Virus record (IMG/VR): IMGVR_UViG_3300020160_001256
Span: 1 to 32,166 of that record
Strand: one strand, 5' to 3'
From: a virus
Length of the DNA: 32,166 bases
Shown here: in pieces, positions 8,498 to 28,271 of the stretch
Position numbering within the stretch: position 1 is the stretch's first letter
How the letters are laid out: each line of letters starts with the position of its first letter
Position numbers and translations under genes: made by a program
The notes under the pieces: generated by a model
Told to the model about the DNA's origin: nothing
Seen by the model: only the letters and a program-made list of their open reading frames with translations
Databases searched by the model: none

Positions 8498-10642
8498 ATG
8501 GCAAGAATATCACAACTTACAACTTTAACCAACGTATCGGATCAAACGATTTTTCCGGTTGTTTCTAGCGGAACAAGCTATGCTGTTACTTTTGGAACAT
8601 TTAAAACACAATTACAAGAATCAGCTCAAGGATCAACTGGCGCTACTGGATTAACTGGCGCAACTGGCGCTACTGGGCTTGGATCAACAGGCGCTACTGG
8701 CCCACAAGGCGTTACAGGAGCTACTGGACAAAGTGGATTAAATGGGGTTGACGGGTCAACAGGTGCTACCGGTCCTAATGGAGCAACAGGTGCTACTGGT
8801 CCTAATGGAGCAATAGGTGCTACAGGGCAAGGCAGTACAGGTGCTACTGGTCCTCAAGGTGCTACTGGTAGTCAAGGTGCTACTGGTCCTGCTGGTGCTA
8901 CTGGGTTGGGTATCCCCGGATTAGTAGGTGCTACTGGTAAAGGTTTTGAAAGTTTATTATCTAATTCAATATTAACAATGCAATCCGGAACCGCAACATT
9001 TATTGTAGATAAATCTGCATCTGTGTCTGCTTTTACCACATCTAGTAGAGTTCGTGCAACTGCTCTTACAAGCACAAATTTAACCGCGATTTTTGATGGA
9101 GTTATTCGTAGCTATTCGGGCAATACTTTGGAATTATCTCCTTTGGTAGTTTTAGGAACTGGAACTTATAACGAGTGGGCAATAACTTTAGTAGGTTCAG
9201 GAGGACTTACTGGTTCAACTGGCCCGACTGGCTCACTTGGCGCTCAGGGATATCAAGGAAGTACAGGTGCAACTGGTTTAGGTGCAACTGGTGCAACTGG
9301 ATTAAAAGGAGATCCTGGAGATCCTGGAGGTGCTACTGGACAAAGAGGTGCTACTGGTGCAACTGGCCCGCAAGGTGCTACTGGTCCTAACGGAGCAACA
9401 GGTGCTACTGGACAAAGAGGTGCTACTGGTGCAACTGGCCCAGCAGGTGCCACAGGATCTCCGGGAAGCTTTGGTGGACTTACTGTAAATTATCGATTTT
9501 CAGCAGACGCAACGGAAGAAGACCCAGGCCCGGGCAAAGTTAGATTTAATAATCAAACACTACCAGACGCAACTGAATTATATATAGACGATGCCGACAT
9601 TAACGGAACAGATTTACAGAGTTTTTTAAGAACAATTGATGACAGTACAAGTCCTTTAAAAGGACATTTTAGAATAGGACTAGCAAATACTCCAGGTGTA
9701 TATGCAATTTTTACAATTACATTAATTGAAGAAATTGAAGGGTACTTTAAGGTTACATGTGCCTACATTGACGGTGTGTATAGATTTGATGACCAAGCCG
9801 AAGTAATTTTAACTTTTGCTAGAACAGGAGACATTGGCCCTCAAGGTGCTACTGGCCCTCAAGGTGCTACTGGTCCTGGATTTGCTGGCCTTGTTTCGAC
9901 AAGCACACACGAAATCAGTACTGCTACTAAAACATTTGTTACCAACAGGAGTGCAGTTTCTGAATCTGCATTTATGGGCGGCAATTATGTCTATGCCTAT
10001 GCAACTTCTGCAAGTATTTACGGACAGATTATAAGTTTTTCAAATAAAAATCTTGTTCTTAGACCTATTAATACTGTAGGAACAGGAACATATAGTAATT
10101 GGTTATTTGATCTAACAGGGGAACTAGGACCAGTTGGTTCTACAGGTGCTACAGGTCCTCAAGGTGCTACAGGTAGCACTGGCCCTGACGGGTCAACTGG
10201 CAGCACAGGTCCTCAAGGATCAACTGGTGCTCAAGGCGACCCTGGAGGTGCTACAGGTCCTCAAGGTGCTACAGGTGCTACCGGTCCTAATGGAGCAACA
10301 GGAGTTACTGGTGCTACTGGAGCATTTATTGGAATTACATGGAACTTAACAAGCAACGGTACAATTGCCTGGACATTCAGCGGCCCGGGAATAGTTGCAG
10401 GTAACACTGACGATCCTGTTTTATATCTTTATAAAGCACATACCTATGTGTTTGTTAATAATGCAGGAGGCACACATCCTTTTGCAATAAGAGTTAGCAA
10501 TGGAGGTGCGGCATATACTAATGGTGTTTCCGGTAGTAGCACAGGAACAACAGTATTTACTGTTCCTATGAATGCTCCTTCAACGTTGTATTATCAATGT
10601 ACTGCACACGCTAGCATGGGTAATACCATTAACATAGTATAA
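8498..10642 (+). CDS. Collagen-like tail fibre with C-terminal cupredoxin-like domain
   Basis: The 714-aa product has four Gly-X-Y blocks (about residues 46-148, 236-324, 446-462, 542-608; units such as GATGPQ and GATGPN) separated by globular domains. The domains at about 149-235 and 463-541 are duplicates of each other (shared ...VGTGTYxxW... end). The one at 325-445 ([20 protein letters not shown]) is a module often found in phage collagen-like proteins. Residues about 610-714 look like a blue-copper fold: H660 in THPFAIR, then C701-x2-H704-x2-M707 in [11 protein letters not shown], the ligand order and spacing of amicyanin. The start ATG is one base after the upstream stop. A trimeric, surface-exposed fibre is expected from the collagen repeats; copper binding is inference only. 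Confidence 0.88.
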
Positions 10643-15994: not shown

Positions 15995-16012
15995 CACTTG
16001 GAGTTAAAACAG

Positions 16013-17701
16013 ATGCCTTATAATTTAAATTTTTTCGACGGTAGATCATTTATTACACTGTCAGATGGTGTTGTAGATCAACAGGCATCGTCAAGTCTTT
16101 ATCTTATTGGAAAAGACGTAACAAGTTATGGTACCTATCAAAATGATAATTTTTTATGGTTGTTAGAAAATTTTGCAGGAACAATTGAACCTGTTAATAA
16201 AGTACAGGGACAAATTTGGTATGACAAAAATACAGGTATCTTAAAACCTAAGATATATGATGGTGGCGAATGGAGATCTTTGGCATTATTAACCACAGAT
16301 GATACAGCATCAACAAATGCAACATTAGGCGATCTTTGGTACAATTCTGCAAATGATCAACTATTTGTTAAAAATACATTATCGAATTATACATTAATTG
16401 GTCCTGAAAAAGTTGTAGGATACGGTAAAACTAGAATGTCCTCTACAGAAGTTTTAGATACTTCTAACGAAGGACATGCTTGTATTATAATGTATGTTGA
16501 CGGTGTAATTGTAGGTGCTATGTCAAATGATGAGTTTGATGTAAAATCGTCTGAAGAGGTTTATCTTGCAGGAATTACACACATAGGAAAAGGATTTAGT
16601 CTTGTAAGTGGAGCAATTATAGCATCTGATAGTGTCTATGCTAGTCAACCGTTAGATGAAGTAATTACAGGACATTGGACATTTACAGATGAAAACGGTA
16701 TTTCTATAAATTCGGCAACAATATTTACAACTGAATCCGGAGACTTAACTTTACAATCAGCACAGGGACAAGATCTTGTAATTGACGCAGATTACATATT
16801 GCCGTTTTCAGTTAATTCAATTATAGGAAGTTCGTCAAAGAAGTTTGCCAAAGTTTACACTTCTGAGATAAATGCTGGATCTAGCATAACCTCAATTAAT
16901 TTAACAGGAAAATATATTTTAACTAGTGGTAGTAAACTAGAACCTGGGGTAGACGGAACTATAGCCCTAGGAGCCGCTAATGCAAGATGGAGTACAGTAT
17001 GTACAAAAGCAATTAACTCTGGCGGGAACACCGAAGAAGCCCAATTAGTTGGAACATTTAAATTAAATGCAGACAGCACATTGGATTTAACTGCTGGCAC
17101 AGTATCAATTAACTCGTTAACTGCTCAAACATCTTTAAGAACATCACTACTTACAACAGGTGCACCGAGCACATACGGTGAATTTATCGGCCAGTGGCAT
17201 TTTAAATCTGGATCTAGTTTAACCTTTGACAATGGATCTAATTTAAGTATAGGCAGTGGTGCAAACTTTTCGTTAGGTGCCGGCGCAAACTTTTCGTTAG
17301 GTGCCGGTACTCAGCTAACGGCTACCTATGCCGACATTGCAGAAAAATATTCATCTGACCAAGATTATGAGCCTGGTACAGTAGTAATGTTTGGCGGGAC
17401 TAAAGAAGTGACTATTTCTTCATTTCCTAGCACTCCAAAAGTAGCAGGAGTTGTAACTACGAATCCTGCACAAATTTTAAATTCAGAATTAGAAGACTCA
17501 GTAGCTATTGCTCTAGTAGGACGAGTTCCGTGTAAAGTTACTGGTAAAATTGAAAAGGGAGACCTGTTAGTTACTAGTCATATTCCTGGAGTAGCAACAA
17601 CCTCAGATTTTCCTAGACCCGGATCATTGGTTGCTAAAGCATTAGAAGATTATAATTCAATTGAAGTTGGTGTAATAGAAGTAATGGTATTAAGAGGATA
17701 A
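16013..17701 (+). CDS. Tail fibre with shared N-terminal and ADIAEKY-type C-terminal domains, 562 aa
   Basis: I place the start at ATG 16013 (MPYNLNFFDG) because TTGGAG lies about eight bases upstream and the alignment with its paralogues starts there. A TTG at 15998 would add five residues. The N-terminal domain (SSLYLIGKDVTSYGTYQ, LLENFAGTIEP, GQIWYDKNTG, GDLWYNSANDQL) is shared with three neighbours. The C-terminal ~125 residues (ADIAEKYSSDQDYEPGTVVM ... VAGVVTTNPA ... GRVPCKVTGKIEKGDLLV) are shared only with the next gene. That domain resembles C-terminal intramolecular-chaperone or autoprocessing domains of fibres, but I cannot see a catalytic residue. A 24-bp unit is duplicated at 17261-17308. 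Confidence 0.85.
   Translation: MPYNLNFFDGRSFITLSDGVVDQQASSSLYLIGKDVTSYGTYQNDNFLWLLENFAGTIEPVNKVQGQIWYDKNTGILKPKIYDGGEWRSLALLTTDDTASTNATLGDLWYNSANDQLFVKNTLSNYTLIGPEKVVGYGKTRMSSTEVLDTSNEGHACIIMYVDGVIVGAMSNDEFDVKSSEEVYLAGITHIGKGFSLVSGAIIASDSVYASQPLDEVITGHWTFTDENGISINSATIFTTESGDLTLQSAQGQDLVIDADYILPFSVNSIIGSSSKKFAKVYTSEINAGSSITSINLTGKYILTSGSKLEPGVDGTIALGAANARWSTVCTKAINSGGNTEEAQLVGTFKLNADSTLDLTAGTVSINSLTAQTSLRTSLLTTGAPSTYGEFIGQWHFKSGSSLTFDNGSNLSIGSGANFSLGAGANFSLGAGTQLTATYADIAEKYSSDQDYEPGTVVMFGGTKEVTISSFPSTPKVAGVVTTNPAQILNSELEDSVAIALVGRVPCKVTGKIEKGDLLVTSHIPGVATTSDFPRPGSLVAKALEDYNSIEVGVIEVMVLRG
17261..17308 (+). repeat. 24-bp tandem duplication inside fibre gene
   Basis: Two adjacent 24-bp copies (17261-17284 and 17285-17308) differ only at the last base. 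Each begins GCAAACTTTTCGTTAGGTGC and encodes ANFSLGAG. The near-identity at DNA level points to a recent slippage or duplication that lengthens the shaft just before the C-terminal domain. A third, more diverged unit (NLSIGSG) lies just upstream. Confidence 0.85.
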
Positions 17702-17704
17702 TAA

Positions 17705-19084
17705 ATGTCATATATTATTAATAAGACAAACGGAACAAAATTAGTAACAGTAGAAGATGGTTCTATTAATGTTACTGCCTGCGACCTAACATTAGTAGGT
17801 AAAAATTATGCAGGATACGGGGAAACTATTGCTACCAATTTTATTAAATTGTTAGAAAACTTTTCCAATTCAACACAGCCAACTAGGCCAATCACTGGGC
17901 AAATTTGGTATGATTCTGCAAACAAAAAAATAAAATTTTATAACGGGTCCGCATTTAAAGGACTACCGACAATAGAATCTTCTTCATCTAAGCCAGCAGA
18001 TCTGTTAAAAGGAGATCTGTGGTATAATGAAACAGAAGGAAAATTATATTTTTATGACGGCTCGGGATATGTAATGATAGGCCCCCAAGTAACTGCTAAA
18101 GCCGCATTAAATGCAATGGTTCCAGTCTTACTTCAAAATTCTTCTGCAAATAGTTCTTATAATGTATTAGTACATCAAATACAAGATGAAGATAATTTAA
18201 AAATTACAACACCGGTGGCAATTACTTCGAATGAAGAATTTGTTCCAGGGTCTGAATTATATTCTTCTTACTTTCCTATAATCAAAAAAGGTATAACTCT
18301 AAGTAATGCAGATGCCGCAACTGGAGTGTCTTCTACATCAACAAATGCTGGATATATGATTTGGGGTACCGCCGCAGATAGTATAAGATTAGCAGGAAGA
18401 TTAGAATCTGAATATGTAAGATATGCCAATCCTTTATTCACTTCGCTTGTTCAAATTACATCACAGAATGGGTTAAACATTGCCAGTGACGAATTAAAAC
18501 TTTACAGTAATGTAAATGGTGCTCAAATAACAACTAAAAAACCTAGAATCAGTTTGAGTGCAACCAGTGGCGGAATTCTTTACAATATTGTAAACGTAGA
18601 TGCTAGCGACGGATTAGCATTTTTACCAAGTAGAACACCTGGAGAAGTTGTTAATATAGGTAGTAATGACAATCCTTTTTATACAATTTACTCAAGATAT
18701 CAACAAACTGTTAGTGCAGACTTGGCAGAAAAATATTCATCTGACGCAGATTACGAGCCAGGAACTGTTTTAAAAATAGGCGGCACAGCCGAAGTTACTA
18801 TTTGCAATAGTTACGAGTGTGAGTCAGTAGCAGGTGTTGTAACCACTGACCCTGCTTATCTAATGAACTCGGCATTAAAGGGCGGTGTTGCAATAGCACT
18901 TAAAGGAAGAATTCCTTGTAAAGTAAAAGGTCCAGTTAAGAAAGGAGACATACTCGTTTCTTCTAATATTCCTGGCCATGCCGAAGCAAGACGCTATGGA
19001 AATCGATCAAACCTTATGGCAGTCATTGGAAAGGCACTCCAAGATTTTGACGGCGAATTAGGAATTATTGAAATTAAGGTATAA
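17705..19084 (+). CDS. Tail fibre with shared N-terminal and ADLAEKY-type C-terminal domains, 459 aa
   Basis: This is the shortest and last of the four paralogues. The N-terminal domain shows CDLTLVGKNYAGYGETIATN, LLENFSNSTQPTRPITGQIW and GDLWYNETEGKLYFYDG. The C-terminal domain (ADLAEKYSSDADYEPGTVLK ... VAGVVTTDPAYLMNSALKGG ... GRIPCKVKGPVKKGDILVSS) is closely related to that of the preceding gene. The middle shaft is short and unrelated, so the two genes share both ends but not the centre. The start ATG follows the previous stop by three bases (an extra in-frame TAA lies between). The stop codon abuts a bidirectional terminator, ending the + strand block. Confidence 0.86.
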   Translation: MSYIINKTNGTKLVTVEDGSINVTACDLTLVGKNYAGYGETIATNFIKLLENFSNSTQPTRPITGQIWYDSANKKIKFYNGSAFKGLPTIESSSSKPADLLKGDLWYNETEGKLYFYDGSGYVMIGPQVTAKAALNAMVPVLLQNSSANSSYNVLVHQIQDEDNLKITTPVAITSNEEFVPGSELYSSYFPIIKKGITLSNADAATGVSSTSTNAGYMIWGTAADSIRLAGRLESEYVRYANPLFTSLVQITSQNGLNIASDELKLYSNVNGAQITTKKPRISLSATSGGILYNIVNVDASDGLAFLPSRTPGEVVNIGSNDNPFYTIYSRYQQTVSADLAEKYSSDADYEPGTVLKIGGTAEVTICNSYECESVAGVVTTDPAYLMNSALKGGVAIALKGRIPCKVKGPVKKGDILVSSNIPGHAEARRYGNRSNLMAVIGKALQDFDGELGIIEIKV

Positions 19085-19954: not shown

Positions 19955-20233
19955 TTAATTTTTATGCAAAAGTGGGCAGGCTAAGGTTAGCATCGTTAAT
20001 TCTTTAGCATCTTCAAAGCCTACTTCTATAGCAGTAGTTAGTTTATTTTCATCAACTATAGTAGTTTTTCTGATACAATATCTACTATCCAAATTGATAT
20101 AAATCCATTTGTCTAATTCTTTTAAATCAAAAAATCCCTTTAATTGAATCTTGCTAAAGTTTGGAGGAATCCTTTTAAGTCTTCTCATTGAGAGAACATT
20201 TAATGGATTCACCCTTCCTCTAACTAAAGCCAT
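19955..20233 (-). CDS. Unknown small basic phage protein, first gene of late unit, 92 aa
   Basis: The N-terminal third is strongly basic (VRGRVNPLNVLSMRRLKRIP), followed by an alpha/beta stretch (KWIYINLDSRYCIRK, then TTAIEVGFEDAKELTMLTL). No known domain was recognised. The start ATG lies only 13 bases downstream of an exact T4-type late promoter, so the mRNA leader would be a few bases long with a weak AGTAGG ribosome-binding site. The late promoter places this gene with its two downstream neighbours in the late programme, in contrast to the metabolic genes further right. Confidence 0.8.
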   Translation of the reverse strand: MALVRGRVNPLNVLSMRRLKRIPPNFSKIQLKGFFDLKELDKWIYINLDSRYCIRKTTIVDENKLTTAIEVGFEDAKELTMLTLACPLLHKN

Positions 20234-20245
20234 AATATACCTACT

Positions 20246-21511
20246 TTATTTATAATGTGCTGTCTGACCGAAAGGAGAAATGATACTGTCATTGCCGTGT
20301 ACAATAAACAGGGTTTCACAGTAGTTTTCATCACCCCAGCTTCCGCATGGATATCCGTCAGTAAACATAATGAAGCGTTTTGGCTCAATGCCTTGTTCTT
20401 TCATAAAATTCCAATTGGCTTCAAAATCAGTACCACCACCGCCTTTGCATTCATAGCTCATGATCTCGTCTGCGGTGTCGCCTGTAAATTGTTTGTAGCC
20501 GTATACTTCTGTGTCAAAGCACCACAAGTCCAATTTAAAGTCAACGTACTCATCCATAATACCCTTAACTTCACTTAAAAAGTCTTTTGCTTGTTTATCT
20601 GAAATACTACCACTCATATCAATAGCAACAGATACGTCGATAGTTTCTTCGTTCATCATGCCGGGAAGTACAGCACCACAATGTTGTGACTTGCGGTTAG
20701 GACGGCTAAAGCTGAAGTTGCTCTTAAGAATACTTTGGATATTCATACGCAACATCTGCCGCCAATCCATTTTAGGTTCTGTGAACGTTTGGATCATACG
20801 CTGTACACCCGCAGGCACCCTGCCAGCACCTGCGGCTTGAGCGGCCGCAACCATTGCTTCCTTGATCTCGTCTTTAATGGCTTTCTTTTCTTCGGCAGTT
20901 AAGCGAGGGCGACCTTTGCCGCTACCGTCAACTTCTTCACCGTCTTTATCCCCGGCACCTCCGTCGTCGCCTTCACCGTCTAGGTGCTCGTCAAGGAGTT
21001 CGCCTAATGTGCTCATATCGATTTTAATGGCTTTAGATTCTACATCTTCGTAGATCTGTTCATAGCTCATTCCGCGATATTTGTTATCTTGATAAATTTT
21101 AATCCAACTAGGCACTTCGCCAATTTTTTCATCTACTAGAATTTGATTAGTAGCATAGTCGGCGGCAATATTTGACAAAACAGGATCTCGATGATCGCGT
21201 CGTCCCATATGGTCAAATACATTATGAAGAACTTCGTGTGCAAAGCCGAATTCTGCTTCTTTAGGTTTAAGTTTATTTACAAAGTCGTTATTGTAATAGA
21301 AGTTACGACCATCAGTGGCTAGCGTAGAGCACCAATCGCTTGCATCGATTAATTTTAACCTAGTAGCAAGATTACCAAAAAATGGATGTCTTAGCAAAAG
21401 ACCAATACGGGCTGTAATTAATTTTTCTACAATTTTTGCTTTTTCTGCGGCAGAGTATTCTTTAGTAGAAACAGGCTTTTTAATTTTTTCAGTTTTCATT
21501 ACTGCTGACAT
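20246..21511 (-). CDS. Metallopeptidase-like/VWA protein, partner of the MoxR-type ATPase
   Basis: The 421-aa product combines a zinc-peptidase-like N-terminal half with HEVLH at residues 92-96 (context GFAHEVLHNVFDHMGRR) and a C-terminal VWA domain. The VWA domain has a complete MIDAS-like site: D298-x-S300-x-S302, T361 in GGGGTDF and D385 in FTDGYP. A Gly/Asp-rich linker (about 175-200) joins them. This is the architecture of the DUF2201 pair (PF13203 plus PF09967). Such proteins usually work with the MoxR-class AAA+ ATPase, which is the gene immediately upstream. The start is supported by AAAGGA eight bases upstream. It has its own promoter and is separated from the ATPase by a terminator. 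Peptidase activity is predicted, not shown; the substrate is unknown. Confidence 0.88.
   Translation of the reverse strand: MSAVMKTEKIKKPVSTKEYSAAEKAKIVEKLITARIGLLLRHPFFGNLATRLKLIDASDWCSTLATDGRNFYYNNDFVNKLKPKEAEFGFAHEVLHNVFDHMGRRDHRDPVLSNIAADYATNQILVDEKIGEVPSWIKIYQDNKYRGMSYEQIYEDVESKAIKIDMSTLGELLDEHLDGEGDDGGAGDKDGEEVDGSGKGRPRLTAEEKKAIKDEIKEAMVAAAQAAGAGRVPAGVQRMIQTFTEPKMDWRQMLRMNIQSILKSNFSFSRPNRKSQHCGAVLPGMMNEETIDVSVAIDMSGSISDKQAKDFLSEVKGIMDEYVDFKLDLWCFDTEVYGYKQFTGDTADEIMSYECKGGGGTDFEANWNFMKEQGIEPKRFIMFTDGYPCGSWGDENYCETLFIVHGNDSIISPFGQTAHYK
20247..20254 (-). promoter_or_regulatory. T4-type late promoter (TATAAATA)
   Basis: The - strand reads TATAAATA exactly, the core recognised by the T4 late sigma factor gp55. 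It starts in the last sense codons and ends in the TAA stop of the VWA-peptidase gene (TAT AAA TAA). The next gene starts 13 bases further, so a transcript starting about seven bases after the core would have a very short leader. No second exact copy was found in the window by eye. Confidence 0.75.
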
Positions 21512-21536
21512 AATATTCCTTTGTTGCTAATGTTTT

Positions 21537-21565
21537 ATTATACACTAAAATTTACCAATGAGCAA
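21537..21565 (-). promoter_or_regulatory. Sigma70-like promoter for the VWA-peptidase gene
   Basis: TTGCTC (21560-21565) and TATAAT (21537-21542) are separated by exactly 17 bases on the - strand, between the ATPase terminator and the VWA start. The -35 box is weak (three of six), but the -10 is perfect and preceded by TG as in the two other promoters found here. Confidence 0.65.
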
Positions 21566-21567
21566 GT

Positions 21568-21591
21568 AAAAAGGGCTCCGAAGAGCCCTTT
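21568..21591 (-). terminator. cUUCGg terminator after the AAA+ ATPase gene
   Basis: On the - strand GGGCTC-TTCG-GAGCCC forms a 6-bp GC-rich stem closed by the very stable C(UUCG)G tetraloop, followed by TTTTT (21572-21568). The A tract before the stem can pair with the T tract. It begins just after the ATPase stop codon (21593-21595). CUUCGG hairpins are a known feature of T4 intercistronic regions. Confidence 0.9.
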
Positions 21592-21592
21592 T

Positions 21593-22675
21593 TTAGCCTT
21601 CCATTGCTGTAATAATATATTTTCCAAACTTGTCGTGGAATCGATCAAAGTGCTGAAGTTTACTGGCATCAAACGGCAATGCATAGTTAGTGAGGGCAAC
21701 CTTGGCACCCATAACAACCAATTCAGTTGGAAAATTATCCATCATAAATTTGAAGAAATTATCTGCCTGTTGATCCCAATTTTTGGCTTTCTTTTTATCT
21801 GCTTCTTGAAGTTCGTAGCACAGGCTAGTGGTCAAAGAATACATTGCAGAGATTTCTTTAATTGAAATCTTTTCAATTTTGCCGCTAAGAATATCTTCTG
21901 GAGCCGGCATCTGTTTTGCTACCTTACGGTGTGCCATAAACTTAACAGCAAGACCCTCGCCAATAGCACCACTTACTAAATCAGTAAGTGTGTTTTCTTC
22001 CAAGTCATCGTCAATAAGCAAGTCGCTAACAAATGACCAGCTACGCGGAGTAGCAAAGGCACGTGAGCTAGACTTTGGATCAAAATCGTACAAGTCTTGT
22101 TTGGCAAATGACACATATCCAACAACCTGTTCGTGCAATTTATTTTTAGTAGCCCACATCAACCAGTCGTCAAAATCAGTTTTGAGTTCTAGATGAAGGA
22201 AACGATTAGCCAACGGAGCTGGCATACGATAAGTTACACCTTTGTCAGTTTCACGGTTACCTGCGGCTACAATGCTAACACCGTCTGGCAATTTATAAGT
22301 ACCTACACGACGATTTAGCACCAATTGGTAAGCCGCCGCCTGTGTAGCAGGAGCCGCCGAGTTCAATTCATCCAAGAACAGGATAGCAGTAGATTCGGGA
22401 TCTGTGGGCAATTCTGCAGGCGGAGCCCAAGTCATAGTATTTGAATTAGAATTGTAATATGGAATACCTTTGATGTCAGTGGGTTCCCACAAACTCAAAC
22501 GAACGTCAATAACTTCACGATTTTGTTCGTCTCCAATTTGTTTTACAATATCAGATTTACCAATGCCAGGTGCACCCCACATGAAAACAGGACGCTTAAT
22601 TTTGACACATTTACGAATTGATTTTTTAGCTTCGTTTGGAGTAACTGCACGATTGCCGCTAAGTGATTCTGCCAT
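21593..22675 (-). CDS. MoxR-type AAA+ ATPase
   Basis: The 360-aa product has Walker A GAPGIGKS (34-41), Walker B ILFLDELN (98-105), sensor-1 region AAGNRETD (N140) and a likely arginine finger in ANRF (R158). This is the AAA_5/MoxR layout. MoxR ATPases act as chaperones that remodel partner proteins together with VWA-domain proteins; the next gene is exactly such a VWA protein. The start has AAGGTA about seven bases upstream. Transcription comes from a near-consensus promoter inside the end of the preceding gene and ends at a cUUCGg hairpin. The C-terminal ~150 residues are helical and not recognised; they probably bind the partner. The cellular target in infection is unknown. Confidence 0.9.
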   Translation of the reverse strand: MAESLSGNRAVTPNEAKKSIRKCVKIKRPVFMWGAPGIGKSDIVKQIGDEQNREVIDVRLSLWEPTDIKGIPYYNSNSNTMTWAPPAELPTDPESTAILFLDELNSAAPATQAAAYQLVLNRRVGTYKLPDGVSIVAAGNRETDKGVTYRMPAPLANRFLHLELKTDFDDWLMWATKNKLHEQVVGYVSFAKQDLYDFDPKSSSRAFATPRSWSFVSDLLIDDDLEENTLTDLVSGAIGEGLAVKFMAHRKVAKQMPAPEDILSGKIEKISIKEISAMYSLTTSLCYELQEADKKKAKNWDQQADNFFKFMMDNFPTELVVMGAKVALTNYALPFDASKLQHFDRFHDKFGKYIITAMEG

Positions 22676-22731: not shown

Positions 22732-22760
22732 ATTATACAGAGATTTAGGTAAAAAGTCAA
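22732..22760 (-). promoter_or_regulatory. Strong sigma70-like promoter for the ATPase gene
   Basis: TTGACT (22755-22760), a 17-base spacer and TATAAT (22732-22737) match the bacterial housekeeping consensus at 11 of 12 positions. The promoter overlaps the last codons of the preceding gene, pointing to recognition by unmodified host RNA polymerase (early or constitutive phage expression). Confidence 0.85.
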
Positions 22761-23152
22761 TGATTTTTTTGTTGTTCTCTTGCCACAGCCATTGCTCTAG
22801 AAAGTCCAAATTTTTGAATATTTCCAGAAAACAATACTAGTTGTACAGCCATCCTTTCAGTAAAAACATAAATGGCTTTTTTGGTTAGATAAAATGGAGA
22901 GTCAATAAACTGGTCCAGTCTAATAATTAATTGGTTAGTCCACTCTATTTCTTTTGGAAGATCAATTTGGTAATATTTTATTCCGGCGTTATTAAGCCAT
23001 GTCCACCCTGAATCTGTTAGACGCATACCGCCTTTTTCTTTATTTCTTGGGTTCATCCAAAATGCCGAAAGCATTTTTTTTACATGCACATCGTCGTGCG
23101 GCTTGCCAGCCTCTTTTAAGACATATCTAGTTAATTCAAATCTTTGATTCAT
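22757..23152 (-). CDS. Unknown phage protein, 131 aa
   Basis: No known domain was recognised. The N-terminal half contains LKEAGKPHDDVHVKKMLSAF and a Trp-containing GWTWLNN turn. The rest is mixed helix/strand with a YLTKKAIYVFTERMAVQLVL stretch near the C-terminus that is amphipathic rather than membrane-spanning. The start overlaps the end of the preceding 99-aa gene by 17 bases and has no strong ribosome-binding site, suggesting translational coupling. The last bases overlap the -35 box of the ATPase promoter. Confidence 0.75.
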   Translation of the reverse strand: MNQRFELTRYVLKEAGKPHDDVHVKKMLSAFWMNPRNKEKGGMRLTDSGWTWLNNAGIKYYQIDLPKEIEWTNQLIIRLDQFIDSPFYLTKKAIYVFTERMAVQLVLFSGNIQKFGLSRAMAVAREQQKNH

Positions 23153-25171: not shown

Positions 25172-25614
25172 GAAATTTCGGATTTACCGTTACCTAAATT
25201 GTTAACATTAACGTAACCACTACCTCTACGATCCATACTAATACCTTCCTCAGCACCAATATTTCTACAAAGGTCTTGGAACCATTGATCAACAATAGAC
25301 TCATCTGAGTCACCTTGATAACCATTGCTACGTAATTGTAGCACAAAATATTCATTCCAGTCAAGTTCGAAAAAACCATTCCGAACATTTTCCTTATTTA
25401 CATGTGTTTCTAGCACTGCCACCCAGGGTTCTTTCTTTTCTGTAGCAAGTTCTTTTGGAGTTAATTTAGCTAATCGTTCTGCTTCTTTAGCCCGTTCAGC
25501 TGCCTCAGTTGCTGATTCTGCTAATTTTTTAGCCTCTTCTGCGGCTCTTATACTTGCTTCGGCTTCGGCTTTTACTTTATCAATACCGAACATCTTTTCA
25601 AAAAATTTATTCAT
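25168..25614 (-). CDS. Unknown phage protein with Ala/Glu-rich coiled coil, 148 aa
   Basis: I place the start at ATG 25614 (MNKFFEKMFGIDKVKAEAEA) with GGGGA about six bases upstream; an ATG at 25626 would add four residues inside the queE frame. Residues about 12-55 form a long Ala/Glu/Lys heptad-like coiled coil. The second half is globular (VLETHVNKENVRNGFFELDW, LRSNGYQGDSDESIVDQWFQ). The protein is conserved in appearance with other marine-phage hypotheticals but no function is known. Its start overlaps the queE stop (TGATG) and its stop overlaps the exonuclease start (ATGA). Confidence 0.75.
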   Translation of the reverse strand: MNKFFEKMFGIDKVKAEAEASIRAAEEAKKLAESATEAAERAKEAERLAKLTPKELATEKKEPWVAVLETHVNKENVRNGFFELDWNEYFVLQLRSNGYQGDSDESIVDQWFQDLCRNIGAEEGISMDRRGSGYVNVNNLGNGKSEIS

Positions 25615-26471
25615 CAGGTTCCCCACTCGTTTTTAAATAATGGCACTTGAAGTCTATCACTGTACCGCCATCCTTTTCGCATTGCCATGTCTGCCACTGA
25701 TCTATTATTAAGATGGTACACCCGCTCAACGCCACCGACAGGCATAATATACACATGGCCTTTAAAACCATCTGCACGATATTGTTCAACGGCACGTTCT
25801 GCATCTTTAAGATCCTCCTCTGTTGCTACAACAAACTTCAAATATGCTGTGCCGTAATTTTCATAGTCGCAAACAACTTTGGGTTTGATAGCATCTTTCC
25901 AAGGCTCGCCACTTGCTGGAAGTTTAGCACTTACACTAAATGTAATTTCTCTTTCGTCCCCACCAAATGTCCAGTCTGCTAGATATTCTTTAAACTTTTC
26001 TGTCAATCGCATTGTGCCGTTAGTTTCAAAAGTAATCTCTTTCAATCCTTTCATGCACGGTTGGTTCAACAAGTCCGGGTAAGCCTTTTGCCAACCTAGC
26101 AATGGCTCGCCACCTGTAATAACAAGATGTTCATCTCGCCATTCTTTAAACGGTAGAGTTTCTACAATTGCTTTAGCAAGACCTTCAACTTCAATCATTG
26201 GACTTAGATCTTTAAAAGCAGGATGCCAACTAGCGTAACTATCACAACCAGTAGACACTAGCGGCAATGCTTTATATTCTGTAAATGGTGTAATCATTGT
26301 GTGCTGTGCCGCAATGTCTGTTGCTTCGTGGCTTAATTCGCCTCGGGGCATACCAAACCCTTGACAGGTAAAGTTGCAGCCGTATGTACGTAGAAACACA
26401 GACGGGACGCCCATGTAGCGTCCTTCACCTTGAATAGAATAAAATAATTCGGATACTTTAATTTTGCTCAT
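25614..26471 (-). CDS. queE: 7-carboxy-7-deazaguanine synthase-like radical SAM enzyme
   Basis: QueE converts 6-carboxytetrahydropterin to 7-carboxy-7-deazaguanine on the way to preQ0, using SAM and a [4Fe-4S] cluster. The 285-aa product shows FYSIQGEGRYMGVPSVFLRT (10-29), C32-x3-C36 in GCNFTCQGFG, a third cysteine C76 in STGCDSYASW, the SAM-binding GGEPLL (120-125) and ETNGT (149-153). The usual cluster loop is CX3CX2C or CX14CX2C; here about 39 residues separate the second and third cysteines. The start has GGAAAG upstream and overlaps the previous stop (ATGA). FolE, the first enzyme of the route, is encoded three genes upstream in the same operon; QueD and QueC are not in the window. Confidence 0.88.
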   Translation of the reverse strand: MSKIKVSELFYSIQGEGRYMGVPSVFLRTYGCNFTCQGFGMPRGELSHEATDIAAQHTMITPFTEYKALPLVSTGCDSYASWHPAFKDLSPMIEVEGLAKAIVETLPFKEWRDEHLVITGGEPLLGWQKAYPDLLNQPCMKGLKEITFETNGTMRLTEKFKEYLADWTFGGDEREITFSVSAKLPASGEPWKDAIKPKVVCDYENYGTAYLKFVVATEEDLKDAERAVEQYRADGFKGHVYIMPVGGVERVYHLNNRSVADMAMRKGWRYSDRLQVPLFKNEWGT

Positions 26472-26695
26472 ATAATCTTTCCTAGACCTGCATAGATAAG
26501 TTGATCCAACTCAGTTTGATAATCTGTACGACCCATTCTGCGTTTAAGCCAAATAGCTTCTAACAAGTCCTTAGCATCATATCCGCTGTCAACAGGTAAG
26601 GCACCACGTGACTCTAGTTCGTCTAACAAATCTTCTGTTTCGAAATCGCCCAAGTCGACATCTACTTCAACTTCTGTGTAAATTGTTTTATACAT
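26468..26695 (-). CDS. Unknown acidic small phage protein, 75 aa
   Basis: The product has an acidic N-terminal strand (YTEVEVDVDLGDFETEDLLD) followed by a helix and a basic WLKRRMGRT segment. The 'VDVDLGDFETEDLLDELE' opening resembles short conserved phage proteins of unknown role. It overlaps the MazG-like gene by eight bases and queE by four, so all three are co-translated. Confidence 0.75.
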   Translation of the reverse strand: MYKTIYTEVEVDVDLGDFETEDLLDELESRGALPVDSGYDAKDLLEAIWLKRRMGRTDYQTELDQLIYAGLGKII

Positions 26696-26975
26696 TTTCT
26701 TTGCTTTCGTAAATATTTGACCAAATTTTTAATTTTTCAATCTTTGCTTGTTTAGCAATATTTAGGCCTTCGTCACTGACAACATTATAATATTTTAACA
26801 GATCTATCATTGCAAGTAAATCACCAATTTCGCCTTCTAGATGTTCTGCATTAGTTAACGGTTTTCCCGGCTTGGCATTATCTAATCCAAACCGAAAACA
26901 TTTACTAATTGCTTGTGTAACTTCTGCACATTCTTCTTGTGTAATCAGTAATACTTCTTTTAGTTGCTCATTCAT
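26688..26975 (-). CDS. MazG-like nucleotide pyrophosphohydrolase
   Basis: The 95-aa all-helical product carries the MazG/all-alpha NTP-PPase signature: E14-E15-x-x-E18 in ITQEECAEVTQA and E49-x-x-D52 in EGEIGDLLAMID. These acidic residues bind Mg2+ in enzymes that hydrolyse (d)NTPs or ppGpp-type alarmones to monophosphates. MazG proteins are common auxiliary genes in marine phages, where adjusting nucleotide pools or host stringent signals has been proposed. At 95 aa it is a single-domain, short member. The start overlaps the previous stop by ATGA. Confidence 0.8.
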   Translation of the reverse strand: MNEQLKEVLLITQEECAEVTQAISKCFRFGLDNAKPGKPLTNAEHLEGEIGDLLAMIDLLKYYNVVSDEGLNIAKQAKIEKLKIWSNIYESKENV

Positions 26976-27430
26976 TTTTTTGCTCTTTCTGTGAGATAAC
27001 TGTTGTTATGTATCCATTTGTTGTTTACTAGGAAACCCCATTCACGTGTTTGTGGACCAGGCATGAACATTGTCCAGCAGTCTGTTCCTTCTTTAAGCTC
27101 AACACGGTGATAGCTATTAGCAGGGCAAATACGGAAGTGCCCAGGACCACGCCAATGCCGTGTTTCACTGATCTTGGTACCTTGTGAATTAAAGTTAGGA
27201 GTCCATTCATAATAACCACCTTTAAGTATTAGAGTAGCGTAAGACCATGGATGATCATGCACATCATCGGGGTCTGACTTAAGAAACTTGTGTAAAAAGA
27301 CATTAAAGGGAAAATGTTTTCTGTCTTTAAGAAATAGGTAGTAGCGTTCGAGGTAAGGTTCATTATCTTGTCTATCCATTACTATGCGTTTACGACCAGC
27401 ACGTTCTAAAAACTTTAATAGCCATTTCAT
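26972..27430 (-). CDS. Cupin-like protein B (HDHPW motif), 152 aa
   Basis: I place the start at 27430 (MKWLLKFLERAGRKRIVMDR): GAGG overlaps the folE stop eight bases upstream, whereas the ATG at 27514 lies inside folE. The centre DPDDVHDHPWSYATLILKGG has the closely spaced His/Asp of a cupin metal site, with a second His in ANSYHRVEL. A C-terminal FMPGPQTREWGFLVNNKWIH segment completes the barrel. Its close paralogue lies at 30689-31165; most aligned residues are identical. Function unknown: a metal-dependent dioxygenase/isomerase or a sugar/nucleotide-binding cupin are possible. Confidence 0.82.
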   Translation of the reverse strand: MKWLLKFLERAGRKRIVMDRQDNEPYLERYYLFLKDRKHFPFNVFLHKFLKSDPDDVHDHPWSYATLILKGGYYEWTPNFNSQGTKISETRHWRGPGHFRICPANSYHRVELKEGTDCWTMFMPGPQTREWGFLVNNKWIHNNSYLTERAKK

Positions 27431-27434
27431 TGTC

Positions 27435-28271
27435 TTACCTCGGAGCAAATTCTTGTTGAAGTTTAATGTTATCGAAAAACTCTTTTTTAGTATTTCCATC
27501 TTCTTTAAACGCACCTTTAAGTACTGTAGTCTGTGTTAGACTAGAGTGTGCCATAATGCCACGATTTTCACAGCAACCGTGTACTGCTTGAATGTATACA
27601 CCTAGGTCTTTTGCGCCTGTAGCTTTTTGGATTTCCCTAGCAATGTCATTGCAAAGTTCCTCCTGGAGAGTACCTCGACGGGCACACCACTGAGCGATCC
27701 TTGTATACTTGCTAAGTCCGATGAGTTTCTGAGCCGCAATGATACCAATATAAGCAACGCCAGTAACGGGTTGGTGATGATGGCTACACATACTGCGAAG
27801 CTCGCTACGAACAACCAGCATACCTTCGTAGCGGTCCTCCGTATCATTTGGAAACGCTGTTGCGTCTGGTGCTGGTTCATAACGTCCTGCCATTATTTCA
27901 TTAAAGTACATTTTAGCAAGACGTCTTGCTGTACCTTTACTATTAGGATCGTTTTCACGATCAATAAGCAATGCATCTAAAACTTTTTCAAATGCTTCAG
28001 TTGCTTCGGTAATTAAATGTTCTTTATCACTATCGTGTAAGTAATTACTGATGTTGTCGCCTGCCCAGAAACGTTTGTTATCACGTTTCATCCTCATGCG
28101 GATTGCCCCTGCCAATGTTCCTTCTTGATAGCCTTTGTCAGACATATCTTCGCCTGCTTTTACATATACTTCTTTGCCCAAAGGTTTATATTCGTCTGGC
28201 ACAAATCTATTGTCTGCATCTGAATGGAATACCGGATCTGGTAAAAATTGTTTTGGTGTCGGGTTACTCAT
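27435..28271 (-). CDS. folE: GTP cyclohydrolase I
   Basis: FolE converts GTP to 7,8-dihydroneopterin triphosphate, the first step of folate and of 7-deazaguanine (preQ0) synthesis. In this 278-aa product the zinc ligands are C162 and H165 in SMCSHHHQPV and C233 in HGCCENRG. LIGLSKYTRIAQW (183-195), TLQEEL (201-206) and NTKKEF near the end also match the family. Bacterial family members usually read CEHH with a Val-Pro or similar after; this one reads CSHHHQPV. An N-terminal extension of about 80 residues is absent from the E. coli enzyme. TAGGAG seven bases upstream supports the start, and a near-consensus promoter lies just ahead. Confidence 0.93.
   Translation of the reverse strand: MSNPTPKQFLPDPVFHSDADNRFVPDEYKPLGKEVYVKAGEDMSDKGYQEGTLAGAIRMRMKRDNKRFWAGDNISNYLHDSDKEHLITEATEAFEKVLDALLIDRENDPNSKGTARRLAKMYFNEIMAGRYEPAPDATAFPNDTEDRYEGMLVVRSELRSMCSHHHQPVTGVAYIGIIAAQKLIGLSKYTRIAQWCARRGTLQEELCNDIAREIQKATGAKDLGVYIQAVHGCCENRGIMAHSSLTQTTVLKGAFKEDGNTKKEFFDNIKLQQEFAPR

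Follow-up and report, generated by a model that had tools for sequence, protein, structure and literature searches.

A MoxR ATPase and a metallopeptidase-VWA protein encoded side by side in an uncultured phage as probable halves of one remodelling machine

The stretch of viral DNA analyzed here (32,166 nt, referred to as the window) encodes a MoxR-type ATPase next to a VWA protein with an HExxH motif, which raises the question of whether the two proteins act together and, if so, on which client. ORF calling in the window returned both genes on the minus strand at exactly the coordinates given in the original prediction, and their identity as a MoxR ATPase beside an HExxH-VWA protein was confirmed by Pfam, PHROG, and the motifs (Table 1). 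The pair itself is not new: N4 gp24/gp25 are known core genes of N4-like phages (PMC4193335, PMC2784036), a MoxR pair is on record for Bacillus phage 0305phi8-36 (PMC2147016), and the MoxR/metallopeptidase-VWA pair of jumbo phages was described by Iyer et al. 2021, who proposed a role in virion assembly (PMC7824862). The earlier remark on an unknown phage role still stands, although a function for the pair had already been put forward. The window represents a further case, from an uncultured virus related to PA5oct that is probably a jumbo phage, because close relatives of the window lie on contigs of up to 328 kb. Our reading, to which we assign a probability of about 0.7, is that the two proteins are halves of one phage-dedicated, ATP-driven remodelling machine of the early/middle, DNA-metabolism phase. 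To what was known we add the HQILH motif of the Atu_ph07 homologue ASV44728.2, the loss of HExxH in bacterial relatives, a resemblance to minigluzincins, and a misleading PHROG label.

Table 1. Positions of the two genes, their motifs, and the regulatory signals in the window
Feature	Position	Strand	Basis
MoxR-type AAA+ ATPase, 360 aa	21593..22675	-	ORF; Pfam AAA_3/AAA_5; PHROG 1297, E 2.6e-105
VWA cochaperone with N-terminal zincin (DUF2201_N), 421 aa	20246..21511	-	ORF; PF13203 and PF09967; PHROG 1314, E 1.4e-107
MoxR Walker A, GAPGIGKS	22556..22579	-	Sequence
MoxR Walker B, LFLDEL	22367..22384	-	Sequence
Zinc-binding/catalytic motif HEVLH, residues 92-96	21224..21238	-	Conservation; N-domain model
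MIDAS DMSGS, residues 298-302	20606..20620	-	Conservation; VWA/I-domain fold matches
MIDAS T361 (completes the site with D385)	20429-20431	-	
MIDAS D385 (completes the site with T361)	20357-20359	-	
Sigma-70-type promoter for MoxR, TTGACT-17-TATAAT	22732..22760	-	Sequence; 90-locus enrichment
Intrinsic terminator after MoxR, GGGCTC-TTCG-GAGCCC-TTTTT	21568..21588	-	Sequence; 90-locus enrichment; compensated stems
Sigma-70-type promoter for VWA gene, TTGCTC-17-TATAAT	21537..21565	-	Sequence; 90-locus enrichment

The MoxR protein matched the Pfam models AAA_3 (33.9 bits, 3e-8; cut-off 27) and AAA_5 (28.7 bits; cut-off 22). It contains the catalytic set of Walker A, Walker B, sensor 1 (N140), arginine finger, and sensor 2, including R158 and R211, and residues K40, S41, D102, E103, N140, R158, and R211 were invariant in an alignment of 18 diverse phages. 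By prediction, the protein assembles into a hexameric AAA+ ring with ATPase activity. Against bpMoxR (PF20030), the Pfam model of vWA-MoxR ternary conflict systems, it scored 13.2 bits, under the cut-off of 27, and no third component of such systems was identified adjoining the pair. Membership in a defence system was rejected, as PADLOC gave generic AAA matches only, and neither PADLOC nor NCBIfam yielded a specific family.

In the partner protein, a DUF2201_N metallopeptidase domain (PF13203, 136.9 bits, 1.3e-39) is followed by a DUF2201 VWA-like domain (PF09967, 56 bits, 5.7e-15), both scoring above the Pfam cut-offs. Among 76 relatives, both histidines of the HEVLH motif were invariant (H92 and H96, 76/76 each) and E93 was retained in 75. 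The likely third metal ligand is the invariant D118 in the next helix. The MIDAS residues D298, S300, S302, T361, and D385 were invariant in 16 diverse phages. The model of the whole protein (mean pLDDT 74) resembled VWA/integrin-I domains, BatB, and the MIDAS domain of Midasin. For the isolated N-domain (pLDDT 87.6), the top matches were the archaeal minigluzincins selecase and jannalysin, with a probability of 0.98 at an E-value of only 0.013, and other zinc peptidases ranked below them with weaker scores. A sequence search of solved structures with the VWA protein returned nothing significant. The protein belongs to PHROG 1314, which is labelled 'HNH endonuclease'; we rejected this assignment, because Pfam detected DUF2201 and no HNH domain. 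The members of PHROG 1314 are DUF2201 metallopeptidase-VWA proteins, and its name is misleading. The label has spread to RefSeq records of phages (N4 gp25, PA5oct gp144, and RaK2), so its correction would mend many phage annotations.

The conservation of the two motifs differs among lineages. Nearly all phage homologues sampled retain HExxH, whereas ASV44728.2 of Atu_ph07 (L084:7394-8614; also L207) carries HQILH and thus lacks the catalytic glutamate, even though it is the exemplar that was cited when the peptidase-plus-chaperone role was put forward. Three bacterial relatives have also lost HExxH (L176, HQTLH; L181, HTVMH; L183, NGAMH) but not the MIDAS, which was retained in all homologues examined. 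This pattern argues that the adaptor function is conserved and that proteolysis is dispensable in those lineages. Because ASV44728.2 has lost the glutamate whereas the MIDAS is constant, the chaperone and protease hypotheses can be told apart, and each is open to direct test.

A gene-neighbourhood survey had been set beforehand as the refuting test for a functional partnership, and in this survey the two genes stayed together in both search directions. Of 80 IMG/VR loci selected by MoxR, 74 have the VWA gene immediately downstream in the same orientation; of the remaining six, five run into the contig edge, and one (L029) carries an inserted gene. This insert, a radical-SAM gene (L029:2961-3983), follows right behind the MoxR terminator, at the usual position of VWA. 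Conversely, MoxR was found upstream in 69 of 70 newly fetched loci selected by VWA, some of which share contigs with the MoxR-selected set, and the exception begins at a contig edge. In a subset consisting mostly of new contigs (L131-L160), the count was 29 of 30. This near-total co-occurrence bears out the partnership. The neighbouring genes at 19955-20233 (46/55 loci) and 22757-23152 (62/70) were considered as a third partner and rejected: within this phage group, they are conserved no differently from every other neighbour, which suggests general synteny rather than a third subunit. Five bacterial loci (L170, L178, L182, L184, and L186) encode a helical protein of ~310-330 aa between MoxR and VWA, with an N-terminus resembling (I/L)SxWxARKxD and no Pfam match. 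It is possible that this protein is a third subunit in the bacterial versions.

Among sequenced phages, the pair occurs in ~700-800 records, which include podoviruses, jumbo myoviruses, and cyanophages; the VWA family was detected in 713 and the MoxR family in 809, with near-equal numbers for most host genera. Phages of Rhizobium and Pseudomonas seemed at first to lack VWA, but N4 queries recovered identical counts in the MoxR and VWA lists (20 and 112, respectively). Both families occur together in N4, 121Q, RaK2, PA5oct, Phosso, Atu_ph07, SCTP-2, S-TIM5, and phiFa, and they are also found in bacteria and on plasmids such as pSYSA. In 4MG, Bacillus phage G, and PA5oct, the two genes are kilobases apart. 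Within the short stretches sampled (2.5 kb flank), VBP32, Pra-JY27, and 'nom' gave no match to the MoxR profile; in Pra-JY27, an AAA gene ~2.2 kb upstream is cut by the edge of the stretch, and in 'nom' the adjoining gene is annotated 'anti-sigma factor'.

By sequence, the closest isolated phage is PA5oct (Arenbergviridae), whose gp149 and gp144 are 52% and 47.5% identical to the window proteins. It has the same upstream QueE-exonuclease order, but its two genes are split by a 2.9 kb insert that encodes a putative homing endonuclease. The Atu_ph07 proteins ASV44729.1/ASV44728.2 (group 2.2 jumbo phages) share families, order, and strand with the window pair and are 36% (MoxR) and 42.5% (VWA) identical over nearly the full length (tblastn). 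The window differs from Atu_ph07 in having HExxH where ASV44728.2 has HQILH, and in the terminator and second promoter that separate its two genes. N4 gp24 (AAA ATPase) and gp25 (vWFA) match both window families over nearly their full length, and gp25 retains HELWH and the MIDAS, but N4 is a podovirus with a virion RNA polymerase, and its identity to the window pair is ~27-31%. The bacterial systems NorQ/NorD, CbbQ/CbbO, and RavA/ViaA share with the window pair the logic of a MoxR ring and a VWA adaptor, although the N-terminal domain of the window partner differs from theirs. In NCBIfam, the window proteins matched none of these systems, and Pfam likewise gave no match to RavA or ViaA. The predicted VWA domain consists of core elements without an extra hairpin, so that the pore-entering finger of NorD is absent from this single-chain model, and the coupling to the ATPase may differ.

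The original prediction also gave the genes separate promoters, with a terminator between them. The window alone could not decide this, because matches to the promoter consensus were no commoner in it than in shuffled sequences (38 vs 40.4); an automated scan missed both the VWA promoter, whose -35 element matches at only 3/6 positions, and the hairpin. In 90 related loci, whose counts are not independent, a GC-rich hairpin with a T-run just past the MoxR stop was present in 67, compared to 15 of 900 random stretches. Sigma-70-type promoters preceded MoxR in 83 of these loci (random, 116/900) and VWA in 73 (random, 214/900). The terminator stems vary widely among relatives, but compensatory changes preserve their pairing, which argues for selection despite the kinship of the loci. 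Independent transcription units were thus supported. Inserts in the intergenic space (L029, L064, L065, and PA5oct) are consistent with two transcription units, and it is a fair inference from these signals that the MoxR:VWA ratio can be set independently. Three lineages (L077, L078, and L080) have gaps of 12-30 nt between the genes and look operonic.

The genomic context points to the phase of infection. The pair lies near exonuclease and QueE genes in the window and PA5oct, and near dCTP deaminase, helicase, and DNA polymerase genes in N4-like phages; in N4, gp24/gp25 are middle transcripts (PMC4193335). Since the window pair lies in a DNA/nucleotide-metabolism block and each gene has its own host-type (sigma-70) promoter, with a terminator between them, early/middle expression is the most likely timing. 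Such timing argues for a replication/transcription or host complex as client rather than a virion structure; we slightly favor the former and consider the latter a weaker, though appreciable, possibility. Elsewhere in the window, positions 25614-28271 contain a QueE-like radical SAM gene, a GTP cyclohydrolase gene, and a PHROG match to 'cysteine dioxygenase', which suggests that a 7-deazaguanine pathway is encoded there, perhaps to modify DNA.

NorQD provides the mechanistic precedent for a remodelling machine of this kind (PMC9976466, PMC13036017). MoxR would assemble into its hexameric ring, and the partner would serve as client adaptor, with the metal of the VWA MIDAS gripping an acidic patch on the client. 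The minigluzincin-like N-domain would bind client segments and, in this lineage, probably cleave them. ATP hydrolysis would then pull or twist the adaptor and thereby remodel the client, with the protease domain of this phage chaperone being retained but dispensable. A bolder version, which we regard as speculative, is that phages at large use the pair as an AAA+/zincin machine of the middle phase, acting on DNA-bound replication, transcription, or host complexes to remodel them or to clear them by proteolysis. If true, a VWA-MIDAS domain passing clients to a fused minigluzincin would make this an ATP-coupled metalloprotease distinct from FtsH and Lon, one whose protease part may disappear without loss of the chaperone function. 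None of the papers found reports interaction, ATPase, or protease measurements on a tailed-phage pair.

The strongest alternative, though still a tentative one, is that the pair acts as a chaperone-protease in virion assembly, building tail or other virion parts while the metallopeptidase trims structural proteins. Iyer et al. based this role on the analogy with ATV p618/p892, tail chaperones of an archaeal virus (PMC7824862). ATV p618 belongs to the virion, with tail proteins and the VWA protein p892 as its binding partners, and direct interaction of p618 and p892 with stimulation of the ATPase was reported (PMC4124505). However, the ATV pair, which is likened to the window pair as viral MoxR plus VWA proteins, lacks the metallopeptidase domain (PMC7824862). 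Virion preparations from three jumbo phages also contained MoxR: PA5oct (gp149, record note), phAPEC6 (gp265c), and S. aureus DC4 (one peptide). The phAPEC6 protein (49.52 kDa, 6 peptides) has a counterpart of matching mass in 121Q (49.51 kDa). These detections favor a virion-linked role, but the same lists name thymidylate synthase, exonuclease, or UvsX, likely contaminants, and the VWA partner is missing from them. Virion genes do lie near the pair in 121Q, RaK2, and S-TIM5, as does thymidylate synthase, whereas most neighbours overall are DNA-metabolism genes. Further points against this role are the missing glutamate of the exemplar ASV44728.2, the middle rather than late transcription of the N4 homologues, and the plasmids that carry the pair without a virion.

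Less probable is a device for host takeover or counter-defence that would take apart or cut proteins of the host or its defences. The sigma-70-type promoters, which suggest early/middle expression, and the relatives of the pair on bacterial plasmids would suit this role, but no counter-defence cluster was identified nearby, and the PADLOC matches were generic AAA ones. Moreover, the core status of the pair in N4-like phages of many hosts argues for a general rather than a strain-specific target.

Very unlikely is a maturase whose task, by analogy with NorQD and CoxDE, would be to insert or activate a metal in an enzyme of the phage or its host: NorQD is a precedent for metal insertion and genes resembling those of metalloenzymes (QueE, GTP cyclohydrolase) are close by, but the pair adjoins replication and nucleotide genes in N4-like phages, DUF2201 proteins have a zincin domain unlike NorD, and no cupredoxin or other metal-protein domain was found in the tail proteins of the window. 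The suggested maturation of a cupredoxin-like fibre was rejected for want of a cupredoxin domain in these tail genes, and the phages, plasmids, and bacteria that carry the pair have no such fibre in common.

The pair belongs to the core genes of N4-like phages, and N4 is readily tractable as a model in E. coli K-12; the available CRISPRi-ART fitness data do not include a genome-wide N4 screen. In the tail region of the window, the adjoining proteins encoded at 15998-17701 and 17705-19084 share a C-terminal domain with the motif EKYSSDxDYEPG, possibly an autoproteolytic or chaperone domain, and positions 8498-10642 encode a tail fibre protein with collagen repeats.
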